A DNA stretch of 35,929 nt, from assembly GCA_017938625.1 (NCBI GenBank), contig JAGBBD010000003.1:1-35929 (forward strand), read 5' to 3'. The position numbers were made by a program, and so were the translations under genes. Origin of the DNA: Oscillospiraceae bacterium (GTDB lineage Bacteria > Bacillota > Clostridia > Oscillospirales > Oscillospiraceae). This document shows positions 5,801 to 22,696 of the stretch, piece by piece (position 1 is the first letter of the stretch; each line of letters opens with the position of its first letter). The notes beneath the pieces are model-generated. The model saw only the letters and a list, made by a program, of their open reading frames with translations, searched no databases and was not told where the DNA came from.

Positions 5801-8800
5801 CAAGTCTGTCTGGGGTATGGGAACACTGGCATTCTCCGGTCTGGGCAAAGCCATCATCACCATCAATGACTACTATTTCTGCACGCCTACTACGGTGGAG
5901 ATCGAGATCACCGAAGACAACAGCCTTGAAAATCCCACTGTTTACACCGTGGACTTCAAGCAGTTTGCCAAGGATATCGCGGCACAGGAACTGTGGAACG
6001 ATCTGCCCTATGAGATCACCCAGGAGTGGCTCGATGCCCATCCCAACGCCGATCAGGCAACCATGAGAGTTCCCATGTCTGCCGAGACCCGCTATGTGGG
6101 CCGCTTCTATGAGGCAAAGACCGCAACAGACAAGTTCCTCTGGGGCGACACGGAAAAGGCTGCCTATGACAGCATCGTGGAATACCAGAAGGCAAACTAC
6201 AACTGGTACTGGTACGAGCCTACCACCAAGCTGAAGACCGGTGAAAATGCCAAGGGTATGTTCGTCAACTATGCTGACAATATCACTTGGGGCATCTCCC
6301 TGTATACCGGTCAGCTGAACAACTCCAACGCCAACTTCAACTTCGTTCTGAATGTGGAGAAGGCAGGTGCCTACACGCTGGATATGACTGCTTACTATGA
6401 GGGTCTGACAGGCGCAGCCAACATTGCTGCCACCACAGGCGGCGGTTCCGGCTCCGGCTATCTGGATATCCTTGTCAACGGTAAGCATGCCGTGGATGAT
6501 TACTGCCTGCTCGGTACTTATGAAAACGGCAGAATCAATGCCACTATGTCCAACTACATGGCAACGGTCTATCTCAGAGAGGGCGAGAACATCATCTCCC
6601 TCAGACCTGCAAAGGATATGCACGGCACCGAGTCCCACCATCGCCGTCAGATCAATCTGGTCTCTATGACCTTCACCGAGGCCAACTGTGAGCATGAGGT
6701 CATCACTGACTACTACTGCGAGACCTGCGGCATGCAGTTCGTTCCCGAGAGCCACATCCTCATCGACTTCAAGGACTTTGCCAAGAAGGCGTCCAAGACC
6801 GATTGGTGGCAGCAGCTGGGTGCAACTGCCATCGATAAGGCAAAGTATCTGGGCTATGAGCTCAAGGCGATGACTGCTGAAAACAAGGCAGCTTACACCG
6901 CTATGCAGCAGTGGCTCAGCGAGAATGCCTGCTGGAACTTCAATGAAGAGGTCACCGGCTTTACCACCACGCTGGATCGGAAGCATGTCTACCTCAATGC
7001 TTCCGATGCCATGACATGGGGTCTTGCATACTACTCCACTTATTTCAACTGCGACAATGCCAAGCTGGGCATCACCGTCAATGTGGAGAAGGCCGGTCCC
7101 TATCAGCTGGATATGACTGCCTTCTATGAGGGCACCACCTCCAACTTCAACACCGATCAGGTCACCGGCGGCACCAGCAATCAGCCCGGTGTGGGCGGCG
7201 GCTATGCCGATATCTTTGTCAACGGCAGACTGGTTGCCGATGACCATGTATTCTATCCCCAGAACCAGCAGTCTGTCACCCAGAAGAGCACCGTTGCTAC
7301 CATCTGGCTGGAAGAGGGTGAAAATGACATTACTGTGGTGCAGGCTCTTGACCATGCAGGTAAGCTGGGCTCCACCTCCCGTCGTTTCATCTGCCTGAAG
7401 CACCTGGCTCTGGTTCCCGTGGAATGTGCCCACGAGACCGAGATTTATGAGTATGCCCGCGGCGAGCAGATGCTGAGCCATGTGCGCAGCACCGTCTGTG
7501 CCAATTGCTTCAAGGTGAGTGCCATCGATGATGGAACTTGCGTGGATGCCAACAGCGACTACTTCTGCGACAACTGCGGCGGCCCCGTGGTCGATACCAA
7601 TGAGACCTTCATGATCGGCGACGAAAATATGCTCCGCACCTTCTCCAAGCTGGTCGATATGGGCGTCAGCGAACTGAATGCAGAGCTGACCGATGATATC
7701 GCTCTGACCTCTGCTTGGGTCACCAATCTGACGGTCGATCATACCATCGGCTCTGCCGAAGCTCCCTATGCCGGTACGTTTGACGGCGCAGGTCATACCA
7801 TTTCCGGTCTGACCATGTCCTTCGGCAACGTCAGAGCATCCCTGGGCGACGGCAACAATGACAACGTCCGTGACTTCCGCCTCGGTCTGTTCAGCACCAC
7901 CGATGGCGCGACCATCAAGGATCTGACTGTGGAAGGATCTCTGAAGCTCTCCGGCAGACAGACCGAGTATTCCAAGGTCGCCGGTATCGTGGCATGCGCT
8001 ACTGATACCACCATCACCAACTGCGTGAACCGCGTGACCATGACCGGTAACTCCTCCGGCTCCTGGGCATACCAGACAAATGTGGGTGGTATCGTTGGTC
8101 TGGCTGACAGATGTACCGTTACCCGCTGCGGCAACGAAGCAGATCTGATCGTCAGCGGCCGCTACATGGGCGGTCTGGTCGGTCGCATCGCCGTTTCCGA
8201 TACTCCCACTGTGGTCTGTGAGAGCTACAACCTGGGTACCATCGATGGCTGCCGTGAGGTCGGCGGTCTGGTCGGTGTGGTCGGCGGCTGCACCAATGAA
8301 GAGACCCGTACCACCATCACCAACTGCTATTCCTACGGCGATTTCGGCAGCCATTCTCTGAAAACCGTGAACAAGCAGACTGTCTATGATTACAGCAATC
8401 GCTACTGCGGTGGTCTGTTCGGCTCTGCCGACGACGAGAACGTCTACATCGAGCTCAGCAATCTGATCATGAGCGGCAGCACCTTTAATGCGGAAATGGA
8501 AGGCCTGACCAATGCTGTTGTCCAGTCCTGGCCCTCTGCAGCATTCCCTGTCAGAGAGAACATCTGGTATGAAGAAGGCAAGGGCGTTGAAGTGAGCAAT
8601 GCCGGCGGCAACTACTGGGGAAGCGGTGTCTCTGCCGAAGATCTGGCAGATCCCAACTTCGTCCGCTCTCTCGGCTGCGAGTTCGTGCTGGTGGACGGCG
8701 AGACCTTGCCTGTTCTGGCATGGCAGCATGCCCATACCGAGGCAGCCGGTTATATCCACAACGGCGATATGACTCATACCGAGGCAACGGTCTGTGAGGG

Positions 8801-10340
8801 CTGTTCCTGGGCAGAGCCTGTTGCCGAAACAGAAGCCTGCACCGATGAAGATGCCGACAATGTCTGTGACGTCTGCGAAGCAGAGCTGTCCTGCCTGCAT
8901 CTGAGAAAGAAGACCCGTCTGGTGACTGCAGATGACGAGACCAGCCATGATATCGTTGTGACCTGCAACTCTGTCTGCAAGCAGGTCCTGAGCACCGAAA
9001 CTGTGGTGTGCGCAGAGACCGAACTGATCACCAAGCTGGTGTCCAACGGCAATGTAACTCATACCACCACCGTTTCCTGCGAGTGCGGCAGAGTTATTTC
9101 CGAGGTGACTGAGGACTGCGCTGACGATGCCGGAACGACCAGTGTGGTCTGCGGTGTCTGCAATGGCTCTCTGGAGTGCAAGCATCCCAATACCACGGCT
9201 TCTTATGAAGCCGTGGGTGAGCAGAAGCACACCGTCACCAAGACCTGCGATGATTGTGAAGCGGTCGTTTCCGTCGAAGAAGCCGACTGCGTGAATGAGA
9301 ACGGCGATCTCGAGTGTGATCTGTGCACCGGCGAGCTCCCCTGCGAGCATGCACTGACTACCCCGTCCTATGCTGAAAACGGCAATCAGACCCACACTGT
9401 TACCAACACCTGTGACGAATGTGAGGAGATCGTCTCCACCGAGACGGTCGGCTGCGCCGATGAGGATGGCGACTACTACTGTGATGCCTGCGGTGGTCAG
9501 GTCGTTCCCGAAGGCACCTACTTCATCGATTTCAAGTATTCTGCCAAGAAGGCATCCGAACAGCCCTTCTGGCAGAATCTGAGAACTGTGAGCGGTGATG
9601 CGGGCAGCTCCAAGTTTATCGGCATCCGCGGCTGGGGCAGAGAAGAGACCGGTGCCATCAAGATGACCGAGACTGAGATCGAGGCCTACGGCGAAATGCT
9701 GACCTATATGAAGCAGAACTTCGGCTGGACGATCAATGAAGAGACCACCCCGCTGAACCTGGAGACGAACAGTGTTCCCAACAAAGCTGTCCTGTTCAAC
9801 ACGGACGGTGCCGTCAAATGGGGTCTTTCCTATCTCTCCGGCGGCTTTGACACAGAAGACCACGTTTCCAAGCTGGATCTGACTGTCACCGTGGAAGAAG
9901 CCGGCTGGTATGCCATTGATCTTACCGCTTTCCATGAGGCAAACTATGGCAGCACCACCATGGGAAGCTATGCCGGTCTGTATTCCGGTTCCGGCTATGC
10001 TGAGATCCTGGTCAATGGCAACTCTTTGCTGGAGGAATATTGTTTCTGCGGCGGTCTTGACGGTGTGTCCAACACGATCAATGGTCAGGAAATGGCCAAC
10101 CGTGTGGCAGCTGTTGAGGTCGGCTATGCCTACCTGAACGCAGGTGAAAACACCATCACCATCAATACCACGAAGGATCTCAATGGCGAAACCACAAGCT
10201 TGGCTCATGCGATCTGCCTGCAGTCCATGAAGCTGGAGCTGGTCAGCACCGACGAGTGCCCTGTCTGTCAGGGAACGGATGAGACCTGTGCTGTGTGCGC
10301 AACCAAGCCCGAAGACAGCGTTGTTGATCCTGAAGGTTAA
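2814..10340 (+). CDS. Giant secreted modular protein: duplicated N-terminal module, GLUG beta-helices, CBM-like domains, Cys-rich repeats
   Basis: The product is 2508 residues. A Sec signal peptide (about 1-27, cut after ASA) is followed by a duplicated ~135-residue module (about 32-317) shared with the proteins at 1 and 14839. A GLUG-like region follows (about 483-840, with FNGNGHTIANF and GLFGKVYGGTVKNLTI), then one Ig-like unit (about 943-1040). Three CBM-like beta-sandwiches (about 1043-1290, 1313-1536, 2233-2475) share DFK-FAK, NWY/NFGW, a VNG strand and a GEN(I/T)I strand. A second GLUG region (about 1596-1968, repeated GGLVG) and a Cys/His repeat array (about 1972-2231) lie between the second and third. 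No enzyme motif, LPXTG or membrane segment is visible. Adhesion or glycan binding at the cell surface is inference. The start follows GAAAGAAAGGGAAAG, a weak Shine-Dalgarno. The gene uses no TTA, CTA or TCA codon over almost its full length. Confidence 0.85.
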   Translation: MKTIVRKALACMLAVLVLFSAASVASAETAEQISFIGANMALGNELVLNFVIDAADIDDPADYTAVVTHAGKTTELPVEKHSTGNYCVSYPLAAREMADKVSAYIVNEHGDIVSETYERSIKDYAHTALDLSDGSNKAMDALMVEMLNYGAEAQKYFHYNESNLANADLTEEQQALCGDAQPCVNALVAGEQYYGTNLALNDSILLNLHFNRGDDAVEDMSAEVEFENFLGKQQTAQVEVLPYSSTLCRVRVDQIVLADARKDVTVKVYAADGSLYGEAVDSVASYVARSTGTRMDALSAAIIRFSDAAYTYLLNRGTEEDKPDVGGSASGDVVVDANGTVKESISLTDNNVQATVPAGVAVKDGTTSLTLSVDTVYDSNADVSVNENETAMSLDVHVEGVAEENTTAILVNLGEVLPIGLNMGNVALYHVENGETVEMTRVASMSELDSHNEYYYEPTTGEVTVALASFSEIVMVNEEAKWEGAVDYSWYDAAATTHTIANADQLAALSAIVGGMVGQTQDSFAGETINLIADIDLDDAEANNDESKIFYPIGYYNSEGTYEKTGTAITSGFKTFEGTFNGNGHTIANFYHNTWEMKGDHEWYAATEQCYRDGMGLFGKVYGGTVKNLTIKNFSSDGEITTTGCVAAYADFGATFENIAIFNCNPRVYNIGNGGIVGCVGWYTKAVTNKPVTFKNITVDNTNKISALWGSWDVACGGLVGQYYPTSGQDSYGNPKNGGISFENCHVSAQIDVNNDVCANYQYYAYRYAGMIIGSVRENETIDGHVYPKMDGITAKGCTVKYGDWNDYYYCELVANSLASYTHDHQFSRLVILESLDEIQAGDTWLKTGNYLLIDGETKTCYHIVKDAEGNLVRHMHEDSGEETVNGETVLKEDKQIVYLPFDQMFTGYGWGVTSKGVKDFEGITNLDIKYGDEDTSVTKFEYVGQESYITGKTLPLGNLFQTIADSGVAVDYDNVQVFVSPADDTSTVSAVYTPNKSVWGMGTLAFSGLGKAIITINDYYFCTPTTVEIEITEDNSLENPTVYTVDFKQFAKDIAAQELWNDLPYEITQEWLDAHPNADQATMRVPMSAETRYVGRFYEAKTATDKFLWGDTEKAAYDSIVEYQKANYNWYWYEPTTKLKTGENAKGMFVNYADNITWGISLYTGQLNNSNANFNFVLNVEKAGAYTLDMTAYYEGLTGAANIAATTGGGSGSGYLDILVNGKHAVDDYCLLGTYENGRINATMSNYMATVYLREGENIISLRPAKDMHGTESHHRRQINLVSMTFTEANCEHEVITDYYCETCGMQFVPESHILIDFKDFAKKASKTDWWQQLGATAIDKAKYLGYELKAMTAENKAAYTAMQQWLSENACWNFNEEVTGFTTTLDRKHVYLNASDAMTWGLAYYSTYFNCDNAKLGITVNVEKAGPYQLDMTAFYEGTTSNFNTDQVTGGTSNQPGVGGGYADIFVNGRLVADDHVFYPQNQQSVTQKSTVATIWLEEGENDITVVQALDHAGKLGSTSRRFICLKHLALVPVECAHETEIYEYARGEQMLSHVRSTVCANCFKVSAIDDGTCVDANSDYFCDNCGGPVVDTNETFMIGDENMLRTFSKLVDMGVSELNAELTDDIALTSAWVTNLTVDHTIGSAEAPYAGTFDGAGHTISGLTMSFGNVRASLGDGNNDNVRDFRLGLFSTTDGATIKDLTVEGSLKLSGRQTEYSKVAGIVACATDTTITNCVNRVTMTGNSSGSWAYQTNVGGIVGLADRCTVTRCGNEADLIVSGRYMGGLVGRIAVSDTPTVVCESYNLGTIDGCREVGGLVGVVGGCTNEETRTTITNCYSYGDFGSHSLKTVNKQTVYDYSNRYCGGLFGSADDENVYIELSNLIMSGSTFNAEMEGLTNAVVQSWPSAAFPVRENIWYEEGKGVEVSNAGGNYWGSGVSAEDLADPNFVRSLGCEFVLVDGETLPVLAWQHAHTEAAGYIHNGDMTHTEATVCEGCSWAEPVAETEACTDEDADNVCDVCEAELSCLHLRKKTRLVTADDETSHDIVVTCNSVCKQVLSTETVVCAETELITKLVSNGNVTHTTTVSCECGRVISEVTEDCADDAGTTSVVCGVCNGSLECKHPNTTASYEAVGEQKHTVTKTCDDCEAVVSVEEADCVNENGDLECDLCTGELPCEHALTTPSYAENGNQTHTVTNTCDECEEIVSTETVGCADEDGDYYCDACGGQVVPEGTYFIDFKYSAKKASEQPFWQNLRTVSGDAGSSKFIGIRGWGREETGAIKMTETEIEAYGEMLTYMKQNFGWTINEETTPLNLETNSVPNKAVLFNTDGAVKWGLSYLSGGFDTEDHVSKLDLTVTVEEAGWYAIDLTAFHEANYGSTTMGSYAGLYSGSGYAEILVNGNSLLEEYCFCGGLDGVSNTINGQEMANRVAAVEVGYAYLNAGENTITINTTKDLNGETTSLAHAICLQSMKLELVSTDECPVCQGTDETCAVCATKPEDSVVDPEG
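9012..9506 (+). repeat. Three 165-bp tandem Cys-rich repeats within the 2814 gene
   Basis: Units start at 9012, 9177 and 9342, each exactly 55 codons. The consensus is C-x-H near the start, H-T-V-T, T-C-x-x-C, a lone C, then D-x-D-x-x-C-D-x-C. A further full unit lies at about 8727-8891 and a shortened 40-residue unit at 8892-9011. Related single copies follow the first two CBM-like modules (about 6684-6745 and 7426-7590). The Cys/His spacing suggests metal-binding mini-domains, but this is unproven. Confidence 0.75.
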
Positions 10341-11251: not shown

Positions 11252-11295
11252 CAGACTGCTTTTTCTGAATTTAACCAAAGAAAAGAGGAATGGCA

Positions 11296-12006
11296 TTGAA
11301 AAAAGCATTGAATGTGATCAAGACAACGACTGTATGCCTGATCGTTGCGCTGGCGGTGTTCATGATGATCTTTACCATCGTTTCTGTGACCACCTTCAAC
11401 CGCAATGACCGGAATTTGTTTGGCTACAAGGCGTATATCGTAAACTCTGACTCTATGGCAGCGACCGATTTTGCTGCAGGTGATCTGATCTTCACAAAGG
11501 AAGTTTATGCCGGGGATCTCAGCGAAGGCGATATCATTACCTTTATTTCGCAGGATACCGAAAGCTACGGTGAGGTCGTGACCCATAAGATCCGCAGCAA
11601 GGCTGTGGATGCCCAGGGCAACCCCGGTTTCGTGACTTACGGTACGACCACAGGCGCCGACGACGCTGTGATCGTCACGTTCCCCTATATTCTCGGCAAG
11701 TACGAGTTCCATCTTGACGGCGTGGGTACATTCTTCAATTTCCTGAAAACACCCCAGGGCTACATCGTGTGTATCTTTGTTCCTTTTATGCTGCTGATCC
11801 TGTATCAGGGCATCAACTGCATCCGCCTGTTCCGCCGCTATAAGAAGGAGCAGAACGAGGAACTGCAGGCAGAAAAGGCAAAGATCGAAGCAGAGCGTGA
11901 GCAGGCAGACAAGATGATGGCAGAGCTGATGGCTCTGAAGGCCCAGCTGGAACAGCAGCAAAAGGCTCCCTCTGCGGAAGAGCAGCCTCCGGTCAGCACC
12001 AACTGA
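11296..12006 (+). CDS. SipW-type (ER-type) signal peptidase I with C-terminal coiled coil
   Basis: A membrane serine protease of the S26B type, which uses a Ser-His dyad to cleave signal peptides. One N-terminal membrane segment (about 10-33) is followed by the catalytic Ser in NSDSM (Ser53 from this start; the usual form is SGSM), GDLIF, GDIITF and VVTHKI with His97. A second membrane segment near 155-175 is followed by a charged cytoplasmic coiled coil rich in E, K, Q and A, an unusual tail. The TTG at 11296 is preferred because AGAGG at 11284-11288 lies 7 nt upstream; the ATG at 11290 would leave almost no spacing. The next gene is a second peptidase of the same type and then their presumed substrates. 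Which peptidase serves which substrate cannot be told from sequence. Confidence 0.85.
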   Translation: MKKALNVIKTTTVCLIVALAVFMMIFTIVSVTTFNRNDRNLFGYKAYIVNSDSMAATDFAAGDLIFTKEVYAGDLSEGDIITFISQDTESYGEVVTHKIRSKAVDAQGNPGFVTYGTTTGADDAVIVTFPYILGKYEFHLDGVGTFFNFLKTPQGYIVCIFVPFMLLILYQGINCIRLFRRYKKEQNEELQAEKAKIEAEREQADKMMAELMALKAQLEQQQKAPSAEEQPPVSTN

Positions 12007-12024
12007 GCAGATAGGAGATCATTC

Positions 12025-12552
12025 ATGAAGGTCGTAAAAAAACTGTGGAGCGTGATCTCCACGATCCTTGTGATCGCCATCGTCCTGTGCGCCGTGGCGC
12101 TCATGGGCTCAAGACTGCTGGGCTTCCGTGTGTTTACCGTCATTTCCGGCTCTATGGAGCCTGCCTACAGCGTGGGCGATCTGATCTATGTGAAGCCTGT
12201 GGATCCCGGTGAGATCAAGGTGGGTGATCCGATCACCTTTGTGCTTAACGAGGCTTTGGTGGTAGCTACGCACCGCGTGGTGGAGATCGATGCGGAAAAT
12301 CAGCATTTCCACACCAAGGGCGATGCCAACGAGATCGCAGATCAAGCACCTGTACATTTCAACAATGTGATCGGCGTGCCCAAATTCAGCATCCCAAAAC
12401 TGGGATATGTTTCTGATTTTATCCAGAATCCTCCCGGTATGTACATCACCATCGCTGCCTGTGCAGTGCTGATCCTGCTGGTCTTCCTGCCCGATATGCT
12501 GACAAAGAAGGAAGAAGAGGCAGAAAAAACAAAGGAAGAGACCAAAGTTTGA
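12025..12552 (+). CDS. sipW: SipW-type signal peptidase I
   Basis: The protein of 175 residues is close to the classic SipW layout. An N-terminal membrane helix (about 7-30) is followed by VISGSMEP with nucleophile Ser43, GDLIYVKPV, GDPITF, VVATHRVVEI with catalytic His83, and HTKGDAN. A C-terminal membrane helix (about 141-160) is followed by a charged K/E tail. It should process exported precursors of the TasA/camelysin type at the outer face of the membrane. The start is firm (AGGAG at 12013-12017, 7-nt spacing). It lies 18 nt after the first peptidase gene and 70 nt before the first TasA-like gene, an operon arrangement like sipW-tasA of Bacillus. Unlike the upstream copy it keeps the canonical SGSM and lacks a long coiled coil. 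Confidence 0.9.
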   Translation: MKVVKKLWSVISTILVIAIVLCAVALMGSRLLGFRVFTVISGSMEPAYSVGDLIYVKPVDPGEIKVGDPITFVLNEALVVATHRVVEIDAENQHFHTKGDANEIADQAPVHFNNVIGVPKFSIPKLGYVSDFIQNPPGMYITIAACAVLILLVFLPDMLTKKEEEAEKTKEETKV

Positions 12553-12622: not shown

Positions 12623-13324
12623 ATGAAACTGTCTAAGAAAAGGGTGTTGGTCATCGCGCTGGTCGTGTGCCTGGTGGCAATCTTGTCCATGGGTACTCTG
12701 GCTTGGTTCAACTACACCGATGACATCACCAACAAGTTCATGGTCGCTACCGATAGTGAAGGTACTCCCGATTTCGGTCTGGATATCTGGGAAACCGAAA
12801 ACGACGGCGATGACACCGTTGACGCCGACGGCGATGGCGACCCCATCAAGACCCAGGAAGGCAATACATACGAGGATATCACTCCCGGCGACGTTTTGGC
12901 AAAAGACCCCACTGTGGAGAACACCGGTCATTATGACCAGTGGGTTCGTGTGCTCGTTACTTTCGATGAGTACTCCAAGATCGAGGCTGCCTGTACCCGT
13001 GTCGGCATTTCCACCGATCTGAGGCAGTGGCTGGATATCGACACTGCCAACTGGACTGCCGATGATGCCGCTACCTTTACCGGCAACGACACCATCACTT
13101 ATGTGTTCTACTACAACAGCAAGCTTACTGAGGGTGCAACGGCTGCTCTGTTCAGCGAGATCACCATCCCCGGTGCGTTCGAGCAGGAAGACATGGCTTA
13201 TGTCAGCGGCGACTTTTCCGTCACCGTCAAGGCTGATGCCGTGCAGGCAGACAACACCGGCGATACCGCTCAGGCTGCATTTGCAGCTGTGGGCTGGACC
13301 GCAGGCGAGGCTTACGACGCATAA
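12623..13324 (+). CDS. TasA/camelysin-like SipW-dependent exported protein
   Basis: The protein has 233 residues. The signal region has K/R residues, a hydrophobic core at about 8-23 and then MGTLAWFNYTDDITNKF, the pattern typical of SipW-dependent precursors (S/M-x-G-T-L-A-W/Y-F-x-D-x-x-x-x-N). The mature part is acidic, with a Asp/Gly-rich loop near 60-75 followed by ITPGDVLAKDPTVENTG and a W-V-R-V strand, as in TasA/CalY beta-sandwich subunits that form biofilm fibres. The start is firm: AAGGAGG lies ahead of the ATG. It is probably cotranscribed with the two peptidases that would process it. Fibre formation is inferred from family, not shown here. It is the best TasA match in the window. 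Confidence 0.85.
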   Translation: MKLSKKRVLVIALVVCLVAILSMGTLAWFNYTDDITNKFMVATDSEGTPDFGLDIWETENDGDDTVDADGDGDPIKTQEGNTYEDITPGDVLAKDPTVENTGHYDQWVRVLVTFDEYSKIEAACTRVGISTDLRQWLDIDTANWTADDAATFTGNDTITYVFYYNSKLTEGATAALFSEITIPGAFEQEDMAYVSGDFSVTVKADAVQADNTGDTAQAAFAAVGWTAGEAYDA

Positions 13325-13410
13325 GCACTACCATCTGTAAGGTACGGCATACGGAAAACATGACATGATCCATATGCCGCAATTTAAAACATGTCACTTA
13401 GGAGGATCTT

Positions 13411-14673
13411 ATGAAAATCAAATCTACCAAGCGCGCACTGGTGCTCAGCGGTCTTGTGCTGCTGCTGTGCGTGTCCATGCTGGTTGGTTCCACCTTTGCG
13501 TGGTTCTCTGATTCTGTGACCAGCAAGAACAACATCATCAAGTCCGGCAATTTGGACGTCGTTCTGGAGTACAAGACTGCCGACATGGCTGACTGGGCTG
13601 TTGTGGAAGACGACACTGCTCTGTTCAGCGAAGATTCCCTCTGGGAGCCCGGCCACACCGAGTACGTCATGCTCCGTGTCAGCAACGCCGGCACTCTGGC
13701 TCTGAAGTACGCTCTGAAGGCTGAAGTGTATTCCGAGAAGGAAGGCACCAACGTTTACAACCAGCAGTTCCTGCTCTCTGACTACCTGATGTATGGTATC
13801 GTCACTGAGAACGATGTTGACACCGCCACCACCGACCGTGAGACCGCTGTGGCAGCTGCTGTCAACGAACTGACCTCTTCCATGGATGTCTCCGGCGCTC
13901 TGGAGGATCTGGGTCTGGGTAACGGCTGGGGCCAGCTGGTCGGCTCTGTCAGCACTGAGAGAGCTCTGCTGCCCGAGGAAAACAATGTTACCGCTCTGAT
14001 CATCACCATGCCCACCACTGTCGGCAACGAGGCCAACTACCTCACCGGCACTGAGGCTCCCTACATCAAGTTTGGCGTCAACCTGTATGCAACTCAGCAG
14101 ATGCATGAGGAAGACAGCTTCGGCGACGACTACGATGAGGATGCAAAGACTGAGCAGATCGAAGTTCCCATCGCCATCGTCCGTGACAATGGCCCCGTGG
14201 AAGATCTGTATGTTGAGTCCCTGTTCGGCGGCGGCCTGTTCGATGAGAACAACAATGAGCACCTGCGCGATATGGATGCAACTTTCACCTTTATCTCTCC
14301 CGCAGGCGTGACCGCTTACGACAACTGGGTCGCTGACTATGAGGTGACTGTGGATGCCGATCTGAACGACGGCGATGCTGTTCTGGCCGGTCAGTATGAC
14401 TTCATCGATGCCGATTGGCAGGCTTTCTATACTCCCGCCGTTGCAGCCAACCAGCCTCAGCGTCTGCTGGCTTCTCAGGGCCTGTACATGACCTATGCAG
14501 ATGTCCGTCAGTACGTTGGTGAGTTTGACTGCGGTGTTGAGAACATCAATGTTCCCGCCGGTACGACCATGACTGTTGCTCTGAAGCTGTACAAGTACGC
14601 TGAAGACGACTCCGCTCATGCAACCGTTCTCGACGAGATCACCGTTGCTTACTACAACTACACCTTTAAATAA
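13411..14673 (+). CDS. SipW-dependent-type exported protein, larger two-part TasA-like protein
   Basis: The protein has 420 residues. The signal region ends in GSTFAWFSDSVTSKNN (about 26-41), the SipW-type cleavage context. Residues about 30-230 form a TasA-like domain with EPGHTEYVMLRVSNAGTLAL and a closing GNEANY...GVNLYATQ. This half is clearly paralogous to the protein at 21247 (EPGYTQVVYLKV, GNEANY...GVIVEATQ). The remaining ~185 residues are an added region rich in Asp, Glu and aromatic residues that I do not recognise, ending in a beta-strand pattern. The start is set by TTAGGAGG (13398-13405). It is the last gene before the terminator at 14683. The extra C-terminal region may be an interaction domain or a second, diverged TasA-like unit. 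Confidence 0.82.
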   Translation: MKIKSTKRALVLSGLVLLLCVSMLVGSTFAWFSDSVTSKNNIIKSGNLDVVLEYKTADMADWAVVEDDTALFSEDSLWEPGHTEYVMLRVSNAGTLALKYALKAEVYSEKEGTNVYNQQFLLSDYLMYGIVTENDVDTATTDRETAVAAAVNELTSSMDVSGALEDLGLGNGWGQLVGSVSTERALLPEENNVTALIITMPTTVGNEANYLTGTEAPYIKFGVNLYATQQMHEEDSFGDDYDEDAKTEQIEVPIAIVRDNGPVEDLYVESLFGGGLFDENNNEHLRDMDATFTFISPAGVTAYDNWVADYEVTVDADLNDGDAVLAGQYDFIDADWQAFYTPAVAANQPQRLLASQGLYMTYADVRQYVGEFDCGVENINVPAGTTMTVALKLYKYAEDDSAHATVLDEITVAYYNYTFK

Positions 14674-14838: not shown

Positions 14839-17800
14839 ATGCGTAAGATTCTCTCTTGTCTGCTTGTTGTGGCGATGCTTTTGAGCTTCGTGCCTGCAGC
14901 AGCGGCTGCGGAAAGCAGTCCCTCTGTTCAGATCATCGGCTCCAACATGGATCTGGGCAATGAGCTTGTTCAGAACTTTATGATCCGTACTTCCGACATT
15001 GATGATCCCAGCCAGTATATGGGCCTTGTGACCCATGGCGATGAGACCATCGAAGTTCCCCTCAGAATGCACAGTACCCAGTATTACTGCATTTCCTATG
15101 GCGTGGCTGCCATGGAGATGGCAGATCCGGTCTCGGTCTGTGTTGTGGATGCAGATGGGAATGTGGTGTCCAACACCTTCACCAGAAGCATCAAGGATTA
15201 CGCACAGCTTGGCCTATCCACTTCTGAGGATATGAAGATGAAGTGCCTGTTGGTGGATATGCTCAACTACGGCACCGAGGCACAGAAATACTTCGGCTAC
15301 AACGAGGAAAACTACGCCAATGCCGATCTGACCGAAGAGCAAAAGGCTCTGGCAAGCGATTCGGTGGAATTTGAAGATAACAGAGAAAGCATCCGGAATG
15401 TTCTTGGCTCCAACCTGGCCCTGAACGATAGGATTTTGCTGAATGTTTTCTTCTCCGGCGTTTCTCCCAGCGAACTGGATACCCTGTCTGCTACTGTGGA
15501 ATACATCAATTTCCTTGGCAGAAAGGTCACCGAAGCCGCAACGGTCACATCTTATAATACCACAGCCTGTAAGGTGGTCGTGGATCAGATCGTGCTGGCG
15601 GATTCCCGCTGTGATGTGACTGTGAAGCTCTATGATGCCGAAGGCAGCCTGATTGGCGAGTGCGTGGATTCTGTGGAAAGCTACGCCGCCCGCAGCGTTG
15701 GCAGCAGAGGCTATGCCCTCAACGAGACCATTATGAAGTTTGCTGATACTGCCTATGTCTACCTGTACGACAGACTCAGCGAAAAGTTTGCTGTCAATGA
15801 TGGTCTGAACTTTGTCCATACGGCAGAAGACAGCACCATCGAAAAGACCCTTGGCGATCTGTTCACAGCTGTGGACGGTGCCGCGATCAGCAGCGAAACT
15901 GTGACCGTGGCTGTCAAAGCCGATGGCCTGAGCGTTGACTATGCCGCCAATGCAGAAGACTGGACACAGGGAACTGTGACCTTCTCCGGTGTTGGTACTG
16001 CCACTTTGATCATTACCGATAACAACCGCTGCGTTCCCTGCACTGCTACCGTGACTGTCACGGAAGTCAAGGATGCGGTGAAGTTCGAGGCAGCTTCCGA
16101 TCTGACCTTTGAGCACACGACGCAGGACGGTACCATCGAGAAGACTGTGGGCGATCTGTTCACCGCCGTGGAAGGCGCCCAGATCGATACTGCCAATGTG
16201 ACCGTGACCTACGAAGCTGATGGCGTGGAAGTTGAGTATGCCATCGATGCGGAAGATTGGACGCAGGATATTGTGACCTTCACCGGCGTGGGTACAGTCA
16301 CTTTCACCATCACCGATGATAATTTCTGCATTCCCACCACGGCAGTGGTGACCATCACGGAGCCTGAGTCTGTGGCAAAGTTCGAGGCAGCCACCGAGCT
16401 GGCCTTTGAACACACCGTTCAGAACGGTACTATCGAAAAGACCGTGGGTGACCTGTTCACCGCCGTGGAAGGTGCCGAAATCGACAGCAGTTCCGTGACT
16501 GTGACCTATGAGACCGACGGTGTGACGGTTGACTATACCCCCAATGCCGCAGACTGGACGCAGGATATTGTGACCTTCACCGGCGTGGGTACAGTCACTT
16601 TCACCATCACCGATGATAATTTCTGCATTCCCACCACGGCAGTGGTGACCATCACCGAGCCGGAGTCCGTGGCAAAGTTTGAAGCAGCCACCGATCTGGC
16701 ATTTGAACACACCGTTCAGAACGGTACTATCGAAAAGACCGTGGGCGACCTGTTCACCGCCGTGGAAGGCGCCGAGATCGATACTGCCAATGTGACCGTG
16801 ACTTTTGAAGCTGACGGCGTGAGCGTTGAGTATGCTCCCAATGCCGCAGATTGGGCACAGGGCACTGTGACCTTCACCGGTGTTGGCACTGCCACACTGA
16901 CTATCACGGATGACAGCTTCTGTATCCCCACGACAGCTTCCGTGACCGTTTCTGAGCCTGAGGAGACAGAAAAATTCGGTCTTGTCTTCCAGAACACCGA
17001 TACCTACATCTATCGTGTAGGCAACCAGAATACGGTCAGCCTTGGCAGTCTCTTCGAGGCTGTCGGTGAGAAGCCTGTCGGCAATGTGAGTGTCACCGTG
17101 GAAGCTCTCAACGGCGCTGTTGTTTCCGGCACTTATACTCCCAATGCTTCCAACTGGAAGTCCGGCACCATTCAGTTCTCCGGCACCGGCCCTGTTGTTG
17201 TGACCATCGATGACGATGCCTATGCTGTAGAAAAGACTCTGAAGCTGGAGGTCGTCAATGCAAAGAACTCCGCTTCTGCCACTTCTGTGACCTCCGCCAC
17301 CGGCAGCAACGTGGTTCTGCTGTGTGATACCACCGGCACGTTCAGCGTCTCCGGCGGCTACACCCTCTATGGCAACGGCTTTACTGTTAGGCTGCCTAAC
17401 ACCTATCAGAGCAAATACTCTGCCGGCTTTGTGGGCATGGTAAATCTGGACAGCGGTAATCTGGACAATGTCAGAATCGAGGGTCCTGTTTATCCCGAAA
17501 CCTATATCTACCGCTCTCAGGCGGAAGACAGCACCGACAGCACTCTGGCAAATTACTTCTACAATGCTGTCATCATCAACTCCGGTAACTGCACTATCTC
17601 CAATTCCTACATCTCCGGCTGCCGTTCTGCTGTCTATGTCAAGGCAGGCAACAATGTGGTCATTGAGAACACCACCCTTTCCGGCGGCTCCTTCGCCAAC
17701 CTTGAAGTTCAGGGCGCGACCAGCGTGACCCTGAAGGATCTGACCACCATTCAGTCTGAGAGAAGCGACTCCTACGGCAAGGGCAAGACGATGATCGGTG

Positions 17801-19797
17801 TTGGTGTCATGGTCTGGTCCGGTACTCCCGAGTTCTATATTGAAGGCGAGCTGGAGCAGTACAACTGGGTGAACAAGACCCAGTGGGATTCCATCGTGCC
17901 TTCTGTCTACCAGAGCGCATTCCCTGCATTCTTCACCGGTTCTGATTTCGCCAAGTTCCAGCATCAGCGTGACGGCGTCACTTATGTGAATCTGGCCTTC
18001 ATCTTTGCCTGCAACTGGGATACTGCCAAGATCCATGATGAGCATACCAACAGCATTGGATATGAATTCTCCAATACGGTCTCTCTGGGCGATCTGGACG
18101 GCGGTGTCCTGTCTGTGGCAAATGCCGGAACTCTCACCGATGAGCTGTTCGTCGCACCGACGACCTATACCGCTACCGGTCATGCTCCCGTGGCGCCTGT
18201 GTTTACCTTCGTGAACAAGGATGAAGAGGCAGACGATCCTAACAATGCAGCCGATCCCTACTGTGTGTATGAAGGCGGTATTCTGAAGATCGGCTCCACC
18301 GGCAGCAGCAGTACACTTGATCTTTCCGGTGTCAGCGTTCTGAAAAATGGTGTTGCCATGGACTATACCGTCTATCTCAACGGCAATGAGGTCACAGGCA
18401 GCTCTGTCACCATCAACGCGGCAGACGGCACCAGCCAGCGTCTGACCTTCAAGGCTGTCAGCGATGATGCAGGCTACGACAAGGACGGCAATGCCGTTGC
18501 CGGTACGGTGGAGTACACCTGGAACATTCCTGTTGAGGTGGCGACCTTGTCCTTCCCGGCTCCTGTCTGGAATATGGACAGCTACACCTTTGGCACCACA
18601 GATCCTACCAAGTGCTACTATGTCTACTATAAGACCTCTACCGGCTATGCCGAGGTCGTACCCATCTTTGAAGGCATCAAGGTGGACTACTACGACAAGA
18701 GCGGCAAGCTGGTCAATCTGGATCTGTCCGGCACCACGGTCAGCAAGACAGACACCAATGCCCTTGGCAGCGAGTATGTCTACACCCACTCCGATGGCTC
18801 TACTCTGGCGATCAAGTACAGCTCCGGTTATAAGAGCGGCGTCACGGCATACTACTTCACCACATATAACGGCAAGCAGTACGTCTATCCCAGTGATCCT
18901 TCCGCAAACGGCAACGTCCGTCCCGGTGTGTCCGATTATGACTTCAATGTGAAGTTCACCTACACCTTCACCGATCCCAACGGTCAGAAGACCGATACGA
19001 TCACCGTCAACTGGTACAATGCAAAGGCGTCCAACTCCAGCAATGTTTCCACCATCAAGTGGGGCACTCTGGATACCACCAACGGTAAGAACGGTACAGA
19101 CTGTATCACAGGTGACACGCTGATTACTCTGGCAGACGGCTCCGTCAAGCGTGCCGATGCCATGACAGGCGACGAGCAGCTGTTGGTCTGGGATCACGCC
19201 ACCGGTGCCATGAGCGCAGCGCCTGTTGCTTACATCATCGATCACGGCGGTGTGGAGCAGGAGCGTGAAGTCACAACTCTGACCTTCTCCGATGGCAGAA
19301 CGCTCGAAATGATCGGCGAGCACGTGTTCTATGACGCAACGCTGAACAAGTATGCAGCCATTGCCGATGACGCGGAAAGCTACATCGGTCACAGTTTCTT
19401 GGCTCTGACCGGCACCGATGCCATGGAAGAGATCACCCTTGTGGATGTGCAGCGCGAGGTTCGCATGACCACGGTCTATGAGGTCGTCTCCTACGAGCAT
19501 CTGACCTGCTTCACGGGCGGCATCCTGTCCACCTCTGCCTATCTGGATCCGCTGCTGAATATCTTCGATCTCGACCCCGAGACCTGGGCATATTCTGAGC
19601 AGAGCGTCGCTGAGGATATTGAGACCTATGGTCTGTATACCTACGAAGACTTTGAGGGTCTGATCTGTGAAGAGGCATTTGAGCTGTATAACGCAAAGTA
19701 CCTGAAGATCGCTGTCGGCAAGGGCTACATCGTCTGGGAGGACATCCTGGAAATGATCGAGATCTATTTCGATGCAGGCGTTGAGCCGCTGCAGTGA
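14839..19797 (+). CDS. Giant secreted surface protein with Ig-like repeats, beta-helix and C-terminal Hint (hedgehog/intein-like) domain
   Basis: The product is 1652 residues. A signal peptide (about 1-24) is followed by the duplicated N-terminal module (about 30-312). Four 99-residue Ig-like repeats and a diverged fifth (about 318-808) precede a right-handed beta-helix region (about 820-1000, with NCTISNSYISGCRSAVYVKA). Several beta-sandwich domains carry the chain to about 1418. Then CITGDTLITLADGS begins a Hint fold: Cys1422 as first residue, LLVWD, TLTFSDGRTLEMIGEHVF with His1495, NKYAAI, YIGHSF and VYEVVSYEHLTCFTGGILS. No His-Asn ends the domain, so protein splicing is unlikely. An N-terminal acyl shift that cleaves or transfers the upstream part is possible. 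About 88 further residues (ETYGLYTYEDFEGL, KIAVGKGYIVWEDILEMIE) follow. No sortase motif or membrane anchor is seen. The ATG at 14839 is chosen over the TTG at 14803 for the signal peptide and the AAAGGGAA ahead of it. Confidence 0.85.
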   Translation: MRKILSCLLVVAMLLSFVPAAAAAESSPSVQIIGSNMDLGNELVQNFMIRTSDIDDPSQYMGLVTHGDETIEVPLRMHSTQYYCISYGVAAMEMADPVSVCVVDADGNVVSNTFTRSIKDYAQLGLSTSEDMKMKCLLVDMLNYGTEAQKYFGYNEENYANADLTEEQKALASDSVEFEDNRESIRNVLGSNLALNDRILLNVFFSGVSPSELDTLSATVEYINFLGRKVTEAATVTSYNTTACKVVVDQIVLADSRCDVTVKLYDAEGSLIGECVDSVESYAARSVGSRGYALNETIMKFADTAYVYLYDRLSEKFAVNDGLNFVHTAEDSTIEKTLGDLFTAVDGAAISSETVTVAVKADGLSVDYAANAEDWTQGTVTFSGVGTATLIITDNNRCVPCTATVTVTEVKDAVKFEAASDLTFEHTTQDGTIEKTVGDLFTAVEGAQIDTANVTVTYEADGVEVEYAIDAEDWTQDIVTFTGVGTVTFTITDDNFCIPTTAVVTITEPESVAKFEAATELAFEHTVQNGTIEKTVGDLFTAVEGAEIDSSSVTVTYETDGVTVDYTPNAADWTQDIVTFTGVGTVTFTITDDNFCIPTTAVVTITEPESVAKFEAATDLAFEHTVQNGTIEKTVGDLFTAVEGAEIDTANVTVTFEADGVSVEYAPNAADWAQGTVTFTGVGTATLTITDDSFCIPTTASVTVSEPEETEKFGLVFQNTDTYIYRVGNQNTVSLGSLFEAVGEKPVGNVSVTVEALNGAVVSGTYTPNASNWKSGTIQFSGTGPVVVTIDDDAYAVEKTLKLEVVNAKNSASATSVTSATGSNVVLLCDTTGTFSVSGGYTLYGNGFTVRLPNTYQSKYSAGFVGMVNLDSGNLDNVRIEGPVYPETYIYRSQAEDSTDSTLANYFYNAVIINSGNCTISNSYISGCRSAVYVKAGNNVVIENTTLSGGSFANLEVQGATSVTLKDLTTIQSERSDSYGKGKTMIGVGVMVWSGTPEFYIEGELEQYNWVNKTQWDSIVPSVYQSAFPAFFTGSDFAKFQHQRDGVTYVNLAFIFACNWDTAKIHDEHTNSIGYEFSNTVSLGDLDGGVLSVANAGTLTDELFVAPTTYTATGHAPVAPVFTFVNKDEEADDPNNAADPYCVYEGGILKIGSTGSSSTLDLSGVSVLKNGVAMDYTVYLNGNEVTGSSVTINAADGTSQRLTFKAVSDDAGYDKDGNAVAGTVEYTWNIPVEVATLSFPAPVWNMDSYTFGTTDPTKCYYVYYKTSTGYAEVVPIFEGIKVDYYDKSGKLVNLDLSGTTVSKTDTNALGSEYVYTHSDGSTLAIKYSSGYKSGVTAYYFTTYNGKQYVYPSDPSANGNVRPGVSDYDFNVKFTYTFTDPNGQKTDTITVNWYNAKASNSSNVSTIKWGTLDTTNGKNGTDCITGDTLITLADGSVKRADAMTGDEQLLVWDHATGAMSAAPVAYIIDHGGVEQEREVTTLTFSDGRTLEMIGEHVFYDATLNKYAAIADDAESYIGHSFLALTGTDAMEEITLVDVQREVRMTTVYEVVSYEHLTCFTGGILSTSAYLDPLLNIFDLDPETWAYSEQSVAEDIETYGLYTYEDFEGLICEEAFELYNAKYLKIAVGKGYIVWEDILEMIEIYFDAGVEPLQ
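15790..16968 (+). repeat. Tandem 297-bp coding repeats (Ig-like units) in the Hint protein gene
   Basis: Units begin at about 15790, 16078, 16375 and 16672; the last three have an exact 297-bp (99-codon) period. Stretches of about 100 bp are identical between the second and third units (16258-16358 and 16555-16655). Each unit carries EHT...GTIEKT-GDLFTAVEGA, a DWTQ-VTF-GVGT strand and FCIPTTA. The near-identity points to recent expansion or ongoing homogenisation. Confidence 0.85.
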
Positions 19798-19849: not shown

Positions 19850-19914
19850 CGGCCGTCAAAGGGCACAGGGCTCTGCGCCTTTTGACAGCCGAAGAAACGA
19901 AAGGAGGAAGCACC

Positions 19915-20490
19915 ATGAAACATGTCAAACTGAAAACAGCTGTGATCTGTCTGGTCGCTGTCCTTCTGACATTCTTTACCCAGCCTTCTCTGGCGTATTA
20001 CACCACCATTGGCAGAGCGACCAATGTTGTGACCACAGGTGAGATCCGTTTTATCATCCACGAGACCACCGATCAGGGAACACCGTTCCCGGAAGAGGGC
20101 GTGTATATTGTCCCCGGTGATATCGTCAGCAAGCAGGTGTTCATTGAAAGTGCCTGTCAGCAGCCCTTCTATCTGCGCGTCAAGCTGGTCTATGGTGTAG
20201 ATGAGCAGGAGCTGTCCTCCGAGGAGTGCTTCCGTGTGAACATCAACGAGGCGTATTGGCAATTGGTGGATGGTTGGTATTACTACAAGGGTGTCGTAGA
20301 GCCGGGACAGACCACACCGTATGTGTTCTCTCAGGTGGAGATCGTGGGCAGTGAGGTGGACAATGCCTATCTGGGCAAGACTCTGACCCTGTCCGTCATT
20401 GCGCAGGGTGTGCAGAGCGCACACAATCCTGTCAGCGGTACCAATACTTATGAAGCCTCCGGCTGGCCTGCGGAAGGAGGCACAACATGA
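19915..20490 (+). CDS. SipW-dependent-type exported protein (TasA/camelysin-like)
   Basis: The protein has 191 residues. The signal segment (about 6-27) ends in QPSLAYYTTIGRATNVVTTG, matching the L-A-Y-F-x-x-x-x-x-A-T-N-V-V-T-x-G context of SipW-dependent precursors, followed by an I-x-F-I-I-H-E strand. The mature chain has VPGDIVSKQVFIESACQQPFYLRVKL and NINEAYWQLVDGWYYYKGVVEPGQTT, a beta-sandwich pattern seen in small TasA-like or pilin-like proteins. The start is firm: AAGGAGG at 19901-19907, spacing 7. The ATG of the next gene overlaps its stop codon (ATGA), so the two are translationally coupled. It is probably secreted and held in the matrix or cell surface, as no anchor of its own is visible. 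Confidence 0.8.
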   Translation: MKHVKLKTAVICLVAVLLTFFTQPSLAYYTTIGRATNVVTTGEIRFIIHETTDQGTPFPEEGVYIVPGDIVSKQVFIESACQQPFYLRVKLVYGVDEQELSSEECFRVNINEAYWQLVDGWYYYKGVVEPGQTTPYVFSQVEIVGSEVDNAYLGKTLTLSVIAQGVQSAHNPVSGTNTYEASGWPAEGGTT

Positions 20491-21266
20491 GAAAACTGTT
20501 TGCTTGCCTGTTGGCGATGCTGATCCTGTCTGTCTGTGTGCTGCCTGTTTTCGCGCAGGATGGCAGTGTGATCTACAGCGGCAATGCACGGGAGTTTATT
20601 TTTGAACCGGGAAGCCGTTACTCGCCTACAGACCTGTTTCCCAACTACAAAGGTGTTATGCCCGGTGACAGCCTGGGTCAGACCATCACCGTCCGCAATG
20701 AGCGTGCACGGACGACCATCCGGGTGTATATGCGCGCTTTGGGCGCCCACGAAGATTCTCAGGAATTTCTCTCGCAGCTGCACCTGCGTGTTAACGAGCT
20801 GAGAGATACGGAGCTTTTCGACGCTCCTGCAAACGAGACCGCCCAGCTGACAGACTGGGTGCTTCTTGGAACGCTCCGCTCCGGCGGTGAGATCGATCTG
20901 GAGGTCATTCTGGATGTGCCTGTGGAGCTGGACAATCGGTTCAGCAATGCCATCGGATATCTGGATTGGGAATTCATGGTAGAAGAGTTTCCGACCGGTG
21001 GCGGCGGAAACAAACCGGATCACCCGGAATTGCCGGATGATGAAGAAGATGAGGTCATCGAAGAAGAACCTCTGCCCCCTGAAATTTTGCCCGATACGCC
21101 TCATACCGGCGACCGGGATGACAGCGGCTTCTGGACAGCTGTTCTGATCTGTGCCGCAGTTTTGATGCTGATCACCGTGGTACTGCTGATCAAGTGGTAC
21201 AGAAGAAACGATGAGGAAGAAGCCTCAGAGAGGAACGTGCGTAAGGATGGAGAAACGGACGTATAA
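20487..21266 (+). CDS. Membrane-anchored surface protein with TPHTG sorting-like signal
   Basis: The protein has 259 residues with a signal peptide (about 1-23, cut after VFA). An extracellular domain (about 24-170) has the LFPNYKGVMPGDSLGQTITV pattern and VYMRALGA, as in proteins I recall from SipW and pilin-type operons of Gram-positive bacteria. An acidic Pro-rich spacer (about 172-200) is followed by TPHTG at 204-208, a hydrophobic helix (about 216-235) and the basic tail KWYRRN, then acidic residues. The TPxTG-hydrophobic-basic order is that of a sortase substrate, close to the (S/P)PxTG form used by C. difficile sortase B rather than LPxTG. No sortase is in the window. The start follows AAGGAGG (20474-20480) and overlaps the previous stop. 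It is a plausible wall anchor for the TasA-like partners. Confidence 0.8.
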   Translation: MRKLFACLLAMLILSVCVLPVFAQDGSVIYSGNAREFIFEPGSRYSPTDLFPNYKGVMPGDSLGQTITVRNERARTTIRVYMRALGAHEDSQEFLSQLHLRVNELRDTELFDAPANETAQLTDWVLLGTLRSGGEIDLEVILDVPVELDNRFSNAIGYLDWEFMVEEFPTGGGGNKPDHPELPDDEEDEVIEEEPLPPEILPDTPHTGDRDDSGFWTAVLICAAVLMLITVVLLIKWYRRNDEEEASERNVRKDGETDV

Positions 21267-21882
21267 AAAAATTGCATATGTCCTGAGCCTTTGCGTGTTC
21301 CTGCTGTGGGCAGCGCTGGGCACGGGAACATCTCTTGCCTGGTTTACAGACACGACCACGGAGATCAAAAATGTCTTCCATACAGCGGAGTTTGAACTGA
21401 AAGTCTCGCACCGTACAGAAGGCGGCTGGTACGAAGTCATTGATGGTACTACGCAGATCTTTGATGACGAAGCCCTCTATGAGCCGGGCTACACGCAGGT
21501 CGTCTATCTGAAGGTGAAAAATGAGGGAACGATTCCCTTTGACATGAAAACGGCAGTCAGTATAACGGATTATACTGTGGCGACCAATGTGTTCGGCAGA
21601 TCCTTCGAACTGCGGGACTATTTGAAATTCGGTTTCGTCATGGCAGATACGGAGGCGGAGCTGGATGAGAAAGTCGCAACCCGCGCCATGGCAGCCGCAG
21701 CAGCCACCATGCCGCTGAACAACTACTCCACAGACACCGTGGTCATGGAGGCCGGGCAGACAAAGTATATGGCGCTGATCGTCCGTATGCCGGAGGAAGT
21801 CGGCAATGAAGCAAACTATCGCGGCGACACCATTCCGAAGGTGGAGCTGGGTGTGATCGTGGAGGCAACGCAGATCACCTGA
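21247..21882 (+). CDS. SipW-dependent-type exported protein, paralog of the 13411 product
   Basis: The protein has 211 residues. A short basic start (MEKRTYKK), a hydrophobic segment (about 9-25) and GTSLAWFTDTTTEIKNVF give the SipW-type signal context. The mature part has EPGYTQVVYLKVKNEGTIPF and ends with GNEANYRGDTIPKVELGV and EATQIT, aligning well with the first half of the larger protein at 13411. The ATG at 21247 is preferred over the in-frame one at 21211 because it gives a normal signal peptide. The nearest good Shine-Dalgarno (AGAGAGG, 21227-21233) is rather far upstream, so the start is less sure than in neighbouring genes. It overlaps the end of the preceding gene by 20 bp, which supports coupling within one operon. 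Confidence 0.78.
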   Translation: MEKRTYKKIAYVLSLCVFLLWAALGTGTSLAWFTDTTTEIKNVFHTAEFELKVSHRTEGGWYEVIDGTTQIFDDEALYEPGYTQVVYLKVKNEGTIPFDMKTAVSITDYTVATNVFGRSFELRDYLKFGFVMADTEAELDEKVATRAMAAAAATMPLNNYSTDTVVMEAGQTKYMALIVRMPEEVGNEANYRGDTIPKVELGVIVEATQIT

Positions 21883-21904
21883 GCCTCTGAAGGAGAGAAA
21901 GACC

Positions 21905-22696
21905 TTGAAAGCATTTTTCTATGATCATTTCCACATACCCAAACAGGGGAAAATAGGGGAAAAGGTCCTGCTGTCCCATGTGGCGCTGACAGCGGTGCTG
22001 ATCATCGTGTATCTGCTGGCGATCAGCGGATCGGCATATGCATTCTTTACCAGCACCACGCGGGTACATAATACGCTGAAAGCCGCTCATTTTGATGCCG
22101 AGATCTATATCGTAGACGAGTATGGAAACGAGATCGATACCGAGCTGCAACCGGACGGTGTGCTGCTGGCACGGCTGGAAGTACCGGGGGCTTACGAGCT
22201 CACCATGACCCCGGACGGCACTGCGGAGACAGGCTTTGTCACCATGCAGATGGAGGGCGTGGACTATACCACAGCCCAGCTGGGGATCTCTATGGAAGCG
22301 GCAGGCGGCTATCGTGACGGCGTTACATTTACCATCCAGGCCTATGAGCCTGTGCCTGTAGCATTCCTGCCTCATTGGGGCACCTCTGCGGCCTATGCGG
22401 ACTATATTGCAGATGGCTATGCCGATCACTATCTGGTGGGCGGCGAGTATCTGGAGGCCGGTGACCCCAACAATACATGGCTGTATCTGGAAGAGGAAAC
22501 GGAAGAAGAGCCGGAGGAAGAAACGGAAGAGTCTGAAGAGCCTGAGGAAACGGAAGAGATCCTCGAAGAGGAACTTGAGACCGAGACCTTCGAGCAGCCG
22601 GAAACCGAAGAAGAACTGCAGCCGGAAACACAAAACGAGGCCGAGGAAGCAGAAACCTCTGAAGAGGAACTCCTGCAATCGGATGAAACATTCTGA
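21905..22696 (+). CDS. SipW-dependent-like exported protein with long Glu-rich C-terminal tail
   Basis: The protein has 263 residues and a TTG start (AGGAG at 21891-21895, 9-nt spacing). An unusually long cytoplasmic N-terminus (about 24 residues) precedes a membrane or signal helix (about 25-45) ending in SGSAYAFFTSTTRVHNTL, the same A-(Y/F)-F-T-S-x-T-x-x-x-N context as its neighbours. A beta-rich domain follows to about 195, then a tail of about 65 residues made mostly of Glu, Thr and Pro (197-260). The tail could bind cations or act as a spacer. No hydrophobic C-terminus or sorting motif is present. It is the last gene of the operon, with a strong terminator 13 bp after the stop. Membership of the TasA/camelysin group rests mainly on the signal region and context. 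Confidence 0.72.
   Translation: MKAFFYDHFHIPKQGKIGEKVLLSHVALTAVLIIVYLLAISGSAYAFFTSTTRVHNTLKAAHFDAEIYIVDEYGNEIDTELQPDGVLLARLEVPGAYELTMTPDGTAETGFVTMQMEGVDYTTAQLGISMEAAGGYRDGVTFTIQAYEPVPVAFLPHWGTSAAYADYIADGYADHYLVGGEYLEAGDPNNTWLYLEEETEEEPEEETEESEEPEETEEILEEELETETFEQPETEEELQPETQNEAEEAETSEEELLQSDETF

Follow-up and report, generated by a model that had tools for sequence, protein, structure and literature searches.

What might a Hint (hedgehog/intein-like) domain do at the end of a giant secreted protein when the terminal His-Asn pair of inteins is missing? The question is raised by a stretch of Oscillospiraceae bacterium DNA (JAGBBD010000003.1, hereafter the window) that spans a whole contig of 35,929 bases in a genome of 71% completeness. 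One of its genes encodes a 1652-residue protein that probably is cut at its C-terminal Hint domain and, once cut, may be bonded covalently to something else. The parts on which the argument depends are as follows (window coordinates).

14839 to 19797, plus strand: gene for the 1652-aa giant secreted protein, from signal peptide to Hint and tail (list of open reading frames)
19102 to 19545, plus strand: Hint domain from Cys1422 to residue ∼1569, no terminal His-Asn (Pfam, profiles, predicted fold)
19102 to 19104, plus strand: Cys1422, predicted nucleophile of an N-S acyl shift (Cys in 49/49 distinct full-length sequences)
19321 to 19323, plus strand: block-B His (GEH), domain position 74 (kept in 49/49)
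19546 to 19794, plus strand: helical tail domain, conserved, with a proposed role in acceptor recognition (AlphaFold helices, conservation)

A Hint Domain at the C-Terminus

An earlier note on this DNA had described a Cys-initiated block, a GEH motif and a closing strand, with neither His-Asn nor extein after them, and had taken the whole for a Hint domain. We found each of these elements in its place: CITGDTLITLADGS begins at 19102, its Cys being residue 1422 counted from the ATG at 14839, and the GEH motif is followed by VYEVVSYEHLTCFTGG, with no His-Asn and no extein beyond. The domain assignment held up as well. The predicted structure of the module has a Hint fold; a 13-sequence profile matched the solved Hint domain of BIL2 (E 7e-10 over 147 positions), and a 41-sequence profile matched hedgehog 1at0 (E 0.0012), with Cys1 aligned to 1at0 residue 1. 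Pfam Hint matched the C-terminal 252-residue piece at E 2.5e-4 and 21.1 bits, under the 29.7 cut-off, and was not listed at E ≤ 1 when the full-length giant protein was the query. The motifs are not a chance observation, the Hint domain at the C-terminus is confirmed, and the module belongs to the Hint superfamily.

We then compared 49 distinct module-spanning sequences, the window's included (profile start 1–2, end at least 205, E < 1e-20). Cys1, Gly13, Phe62, His74, Gly96, Phe99, Leu113, and Gly177 are invariant in 49/49, in a set whose selection by profile start biases it toward an intact start and hence toward Cys1. Both computable points on which the earlier note had staked its claim, a predicted Hint fold and a Cys conserved among homologs, thus came out in its favor. 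In known Hints, Cys1 and the block-B His can support an N-S acyl shift, usually with the help of a Thr. At that position, most of the 49 sequences (46, the window with its Ile among them) have Ile, Val, or Leu; 1 has Ala, and 2 have Thr. None of the 49 has a His-Asn at the end of the Hint domain. Relative to locus L011, the nearest relative, whose Hint and tail are 84% identical to those of the window, the ratio of nonsynonymous to synonymous substitution rates (dN/dS) was 0.105 for the Hint domain and 0.080 for the tail.

A Folded Domain Follows the Hint Domain

The remainder of the protein had been described as an acidic tail. Acidic it is (19 Asp/Glu versus 3 Lys), but it is a conserved folded domain and not a mere acidic tail. 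In the joint AlphaFold model the tail (residues ∼1570–1652) is helical, with block mean predicted local distance difference test (pLDDT) values of 77–95 and a value of 47 in the final 7 residues; modeled alone, it stays helical (pLDDT 82.7, predicted template modeling score 0.70). Its conservation across the 49 sequences is about that of the Hint domain: G177 is present in 49/49 and D172, K207, and G208 in 48/49 each. When the tail alone was the query, Hint lay beside it at all 11 places found in 196 genomes and at all 10 viral loci. The tail gave no convincing match in Pfam, in PDB sequences, or in PDB folds, the fold search being shallow, and our searches of open papers turned up no description of the two-domain form of Hint plus tail.

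Proposed Mechanism and Known Systems

We propose that the last ∼231 residues form an autoprocessing module of two domains, arranged as in the hedgehog C-terminal (Hog) region, that usually would transfer the end of the stalk to a nucleophile brought by the tail; we rate this as close to an even call. The Hint domain would form a thioester at Cys1422 through an N-S acyl shift, and the helical tail would occupy the place of the hedgehog adduct-recognition region. Because this Hint lacks the Asn, resolving the thioester would take either water or, as in hedgehog, a nucleophile from outside. We prefer transfer over hydrolysis because a conserved folded second domain sits where hedgehog has its recognition region. 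The tail usually would deliver the nucleophile, our best guess being an amine of a neighboring protein, after BIL2. Cleavage would free Hint plus tail, the ∼1421-residue stalk protein would gain a new C-terminus, and the secreted stalk or fiber end would thereby be joined covalently to a partner. That the reaction takes place at all, and that its outcome is transfer instead of hydrolysis, is our inference. A stalk with a fiber-type start has its C-terminus at the far end, so joining of that end is expected and not wall anchoring; for plain secreted stalks such as that of the window, it could be either.

The closest solved relative is BIL2, from the Tetrahymena thermophila BUBL1 polyubiquitin locus (PDB ID codes 6Y75 and 6TMM). 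BIL2 sits between ubiquitin-like domains; the present module is C-terminal and carries the tail domain in addition. In the alignment, the block-F His of the module misses the second zinc His of BIL2 by one column, so a zinc site is no more than a lead. BIL2 reportedly ligates its N-extein to Lys side chains (PMC8616854). The module resembles hedgehog Hog (Hint plus SRR/ARR) in its C-terminal position, a conserved extra stretch after Hint, Cys1, the block-B His, and the lack of HN (His-Asn); it differs in being bacterial and phage and in having mostly lost the Thr of TxxH (2/49 keep it). ARR is the term used for the region after Hint in a source on hedgehog (PMC2362128). At best the module would act in the manner of a Hog domain; we do not file it as one because TxxH is not kept and PDB sequence and fold searches with the tail gave nothing convincing that would tie it to SRR/ARR.

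Inteins end in the His-Asn that all 49 sequences lack, and the window protein stops after the tail, with no +1 extein. BIL types A and B also end in HN, unlike any of the 49; the module shares with BIL domains a Hint within secreted bacterial proteins and the lack of a +1 nucleophile. Internal-thioester (TED) adhesins have a fold and chemistry different from those of Hint, but their effect would be similar to that of the proposed module. In such adhesins, streptococcal SfbI among them, a surface protein is described as covalently joined through a thioester (PMC4450167). The accounts in PMC7664689 and PMC3403396 assign BIL domains a presumed role in variable surface proteins. The variable C-terminal toxin of polymorphic pretoxins (PT-HINT) has no counterpart here, where there is one conserved tail.

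Spread of the Module and Its Carriers

The earlier note mentioned similar C-termini in other gut Firmicutes, and we found such relatives in other Clostridia: the named assemblies are classed as Oscillospiraceae, Clostridiales, or Clostridia, and at least one was sampled from goat rectum. With the window protein as query, 8 of 400 genomes of its own family matched at E ≤ 1e-3, 6 of them covering the whole module (own genome included), and the named assemblies gave 6 loci, L011 being the same contig as G002. Profile searches matched 19 of 394 genomes of the order (2 weak Hint-only, 2 partial), 15 of 391 of the class (1 weak Hint-only), and 37 viral contigs, ten of which (L057–L066) cover Hint and tail; at phylum level, nothing but the own genome and a single weak match confined to Hint came up among 348 genomes. 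These genome sets overlap, the own and some other genomes recurring between searches. Three genomes (G810, G862, and G907) have 2–3 family genes each, near one another on a single contig. Such clustering of Hint-plus-tail giant genes (L132, L139, and L141; related genomes) suggests a duplicated surface protein set.

The N-terminus is cut off by a contig or stretch end in 11 of the 49 sequences. Labeled by hand, the 38 visible N-termini comprise 7 of SipW/TasA type, 4 of pilin type, 5 phage proteins, and 22 with a plain signal peptide or unassigned; L127 and L138 have no signal by pattern, and the signal of L148 is unconvincing. Pfam or NCBIfam placed L012, L124, and L126 in the camelysin/SipW type above cut-off and L121 and L135 narrowly below; L128 is TasA-type by sequence, with no Pfam or NCBIfam match, and L150 by sequence alone. 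For the pilin type, L122 and L120 scored above cut-off, and L142 and L145 were weak (N_methyl E 0.023 and 0.035).

Fiber- or pilin-type starts occurred in 10 of 32 module proteins versus 0 of 45 other open reading frames of at least 700 residues (same loci, same patterns), a rough control, since the 45 include many stop-to-stop frames, not necessarily genes, and several neighbors with a SipW signal fall just under the limit, at 699 (L012), 642 and 643 (L121), and 599 (L124) residues. On the module tree the TasA label has to be gained or lost 7 times, and well-supported branches force at least 4 of these changes; the pilin label needs 3 and the phage label 1. These repeated changes of the TasA and pilin labels imply that the module was joined to fiber-type starts more than once, unless the starts were repeatedly lost. 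Of 39 cellular loci inspected, 5 (the window, L012, L121, L124, and L128) have a SipW-type peptidase gene no more than 8 kb away.

The phage carriers of the module have no signal peptide. At L061 the gene order is small terminase, large terminase, portal, the 822-residue module protein, and, directly behind it, a 3140-residue gene (L061:10721-20143) with three matches to ADP-ribosyltransferase-type polyvalent domains (ART-PolyVal) in the first 2000 residues scanned. L058 encodes the module protein together with a large terminase and a weak match to a portal. In one protein from the viral collection (L066), a signal peptide opens the chain and the module lies mid-protein.

Two further groups of Hint domains were seen. 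A second phage group (L067, L068, L070–L075, and L088; L069 is similar) has the same type of Hint with a different conserved C-terminal stretch (approximately RFNNxYPIxDMKFVKD); L068 and L069 match baseplate or tail fiber families, with the Hint near the protein end. A third, C-terminal group (L080, L081, L087, and L009) shares a short end (approximately ATAEQAxxM) and comes from viral contigs and an own-family genome.

The Stalk and the SipW Locus

The remaining features of the window are these.

17452 to 17739, plus strand: right-handed beta-helix region, part of the stalk (Pfam Beta_helix, E 1e-5, 25.7 bits, narrowly missing the 25.9 cut-off)
19018 to 19101, plus strand: Asn/Ser/Thr/Gly-rich linker ahead of the predicted scissile Cys (sequence)
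11290 to 12552, plus strand: two SipW-type signal peptidase genes, 11290–12006 and 12025–12552 (NCBIfam TIGR02228, both above cut-off)
12623 to 14673, plus strand: two genes with SipW-type signal sequences, 12623–13324 and 13411–14673 (NCBIfam TIGR04088, both above cut-off)
19882 to 22696, plus strand: downstream genes, including 19882–20490 and 21905–22696

The giant protein opens with a plain signal peptide, judged from pattern and by eye; a pattern check and family scans gave no SipW-type signal sequence on it. Degenerate repeats precede the beta-helix region and Ig-like stretches come after it, both judged by eye. The linker before Cys1422 is predicted to be flexible. Across the 49 sequences, Gly, Ser, Thr, Asn, Asp, and Pro make up 73% of the 6 residues preceding the Cys versus 47% farther upstream. 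The earlier note had argued for possible cleavage or attachment from a missing anchor. There is indeed no LPxTG anywhere in the 1652 residues, but the motive is weak, given 4 sortase matches over cut-off in the genome and a SipW/TasA- or pilin-type start on 11 of the 38 carriers with a visible N-terminus, which could itself place a carrier in a fiber.

The two SipW-type peptidase genes nearby agree with the SipW locus that the note had named. As in TasA/camelysin fiber proteins, a SipW-type signal is carried by two window neighbors and by 7 relatives, but not by the window protein; the product of 13411–14673 is camelysin-like (Pfam Peptidase_M73, above cut-off). Genes 19882–20490 and 21905–22696 show a weak likeness to BsaA-type SipW-dependent matrix proteins (NCBIfam TIGR04090, E 4e-5 and 4e-4, both below cut-off). 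Upstream in the locus lies an open reading frame of 2508 residues (2814–10340) with no clear family match; another, of 1352 residues on the minus strand (31184–35242), gave nothing in a Pfam scan at E 0.01.

Weighing the Explanations

Several observations weigh against the proposed autoprocessing with transfer. Most of the sequences have replaced the block-B Thr known from hedgehog and inteins, so catalysis may be slow or lost; BIL2 ends in Asn143 (N143A in the crystal) and this family does not, which leaves the precedent incomplete; and the tail resembles no acceptor-binding domain that we found. Two loci, L013 (5101–5679) and L151 (7487–7819), hold the C-terminal part only, with no block A found beside it by tblastn; L013 is apparently the same contig as L029, L151 is the same place as L033, and the copies may be truncated or possibly silent pieces. 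Finally, phage carriers with no signal peptide make one common surface acceptor unlikely, and a cell wall- or matrix-specific acceptor, as the earlier note had worded it, cannot be general because the module is also found on these proteins.

Resolution of the thioester by water, with Hint plus tail as a self-cutting C-terminal aid to folding or assembly, is in our estimate rather unlikely. The C-terminal autocleaved chaperones of phage tail spikes remove themselves in a comparable way by other chemistry, and such maturation would function alike in the cytosol and outside. It would also suit carriers that are mostly long secreted proteins, some of fiber type and with phage proteins included, and the other Hint families, with other C-terminal regions, that end proteins matching phage tail fibers or baseplates (L069 and L068). 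However, a mere cut does not need a conserved second domain, and the tail has no known assembly role. A Hint fold kept as a structural or binding tip that never cleaves would account for the missing Thr in 47/49, but Cys1 and His74 are retained in 49/49 amid variable neighbors and a Gly/Ser/Thr/Asn-rich linker stands ahead of the Cys, and we consider this reading unlikely.

In known families of secreted polymorphic toxins, Hint domains precede the toxins, and among 13 members of the present family, 1 had a Pfam PT-HINT match (E 0.08). That the Hint domain frees the tail as a toxin is nevertheless very improbable: the tail is not polymorphic but stays a single conserved domain from genus to genus and carrier to carrier (49 sequences, 45 aligned), no toxin family stands out for it, PADLOC gave no hit, and the gene that follows in the window has a weak matrix-like match and is not small and immunity-like. 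We give hardly any credence to a decayed intein or BIL remnant with no current role. The absent HN and the truncated copies at two loci would fit decay, but dN/dS is low, the active-site residues are invariant, and the carriers are of several types.

Implications

Taken at its widest, transfer by the Hog-like module would give Clostridia and some phages a hedgehog-like "glue" for fiber ends, in which a removable Hint and recognition domain on giant TasA-type, pilin-type, and plain stalks, once in place, makes a covalent bond, free of ATP and sortase, to an acceptor that the tail selects; this general role we regard as doubtful. The origin of the Hog domain is described as an open question (PMC2362128), and a bacterial Hint with a conserved following domain is a natural comparison for it. 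If cargo transfer is true, it would add a further bacterial route to covalent surface structures besides sortases and internal-thioester adhesins, one that would serve TasA-type and pilin-type proteins of Clostridia and phage proteins encoded beside the portal gene.
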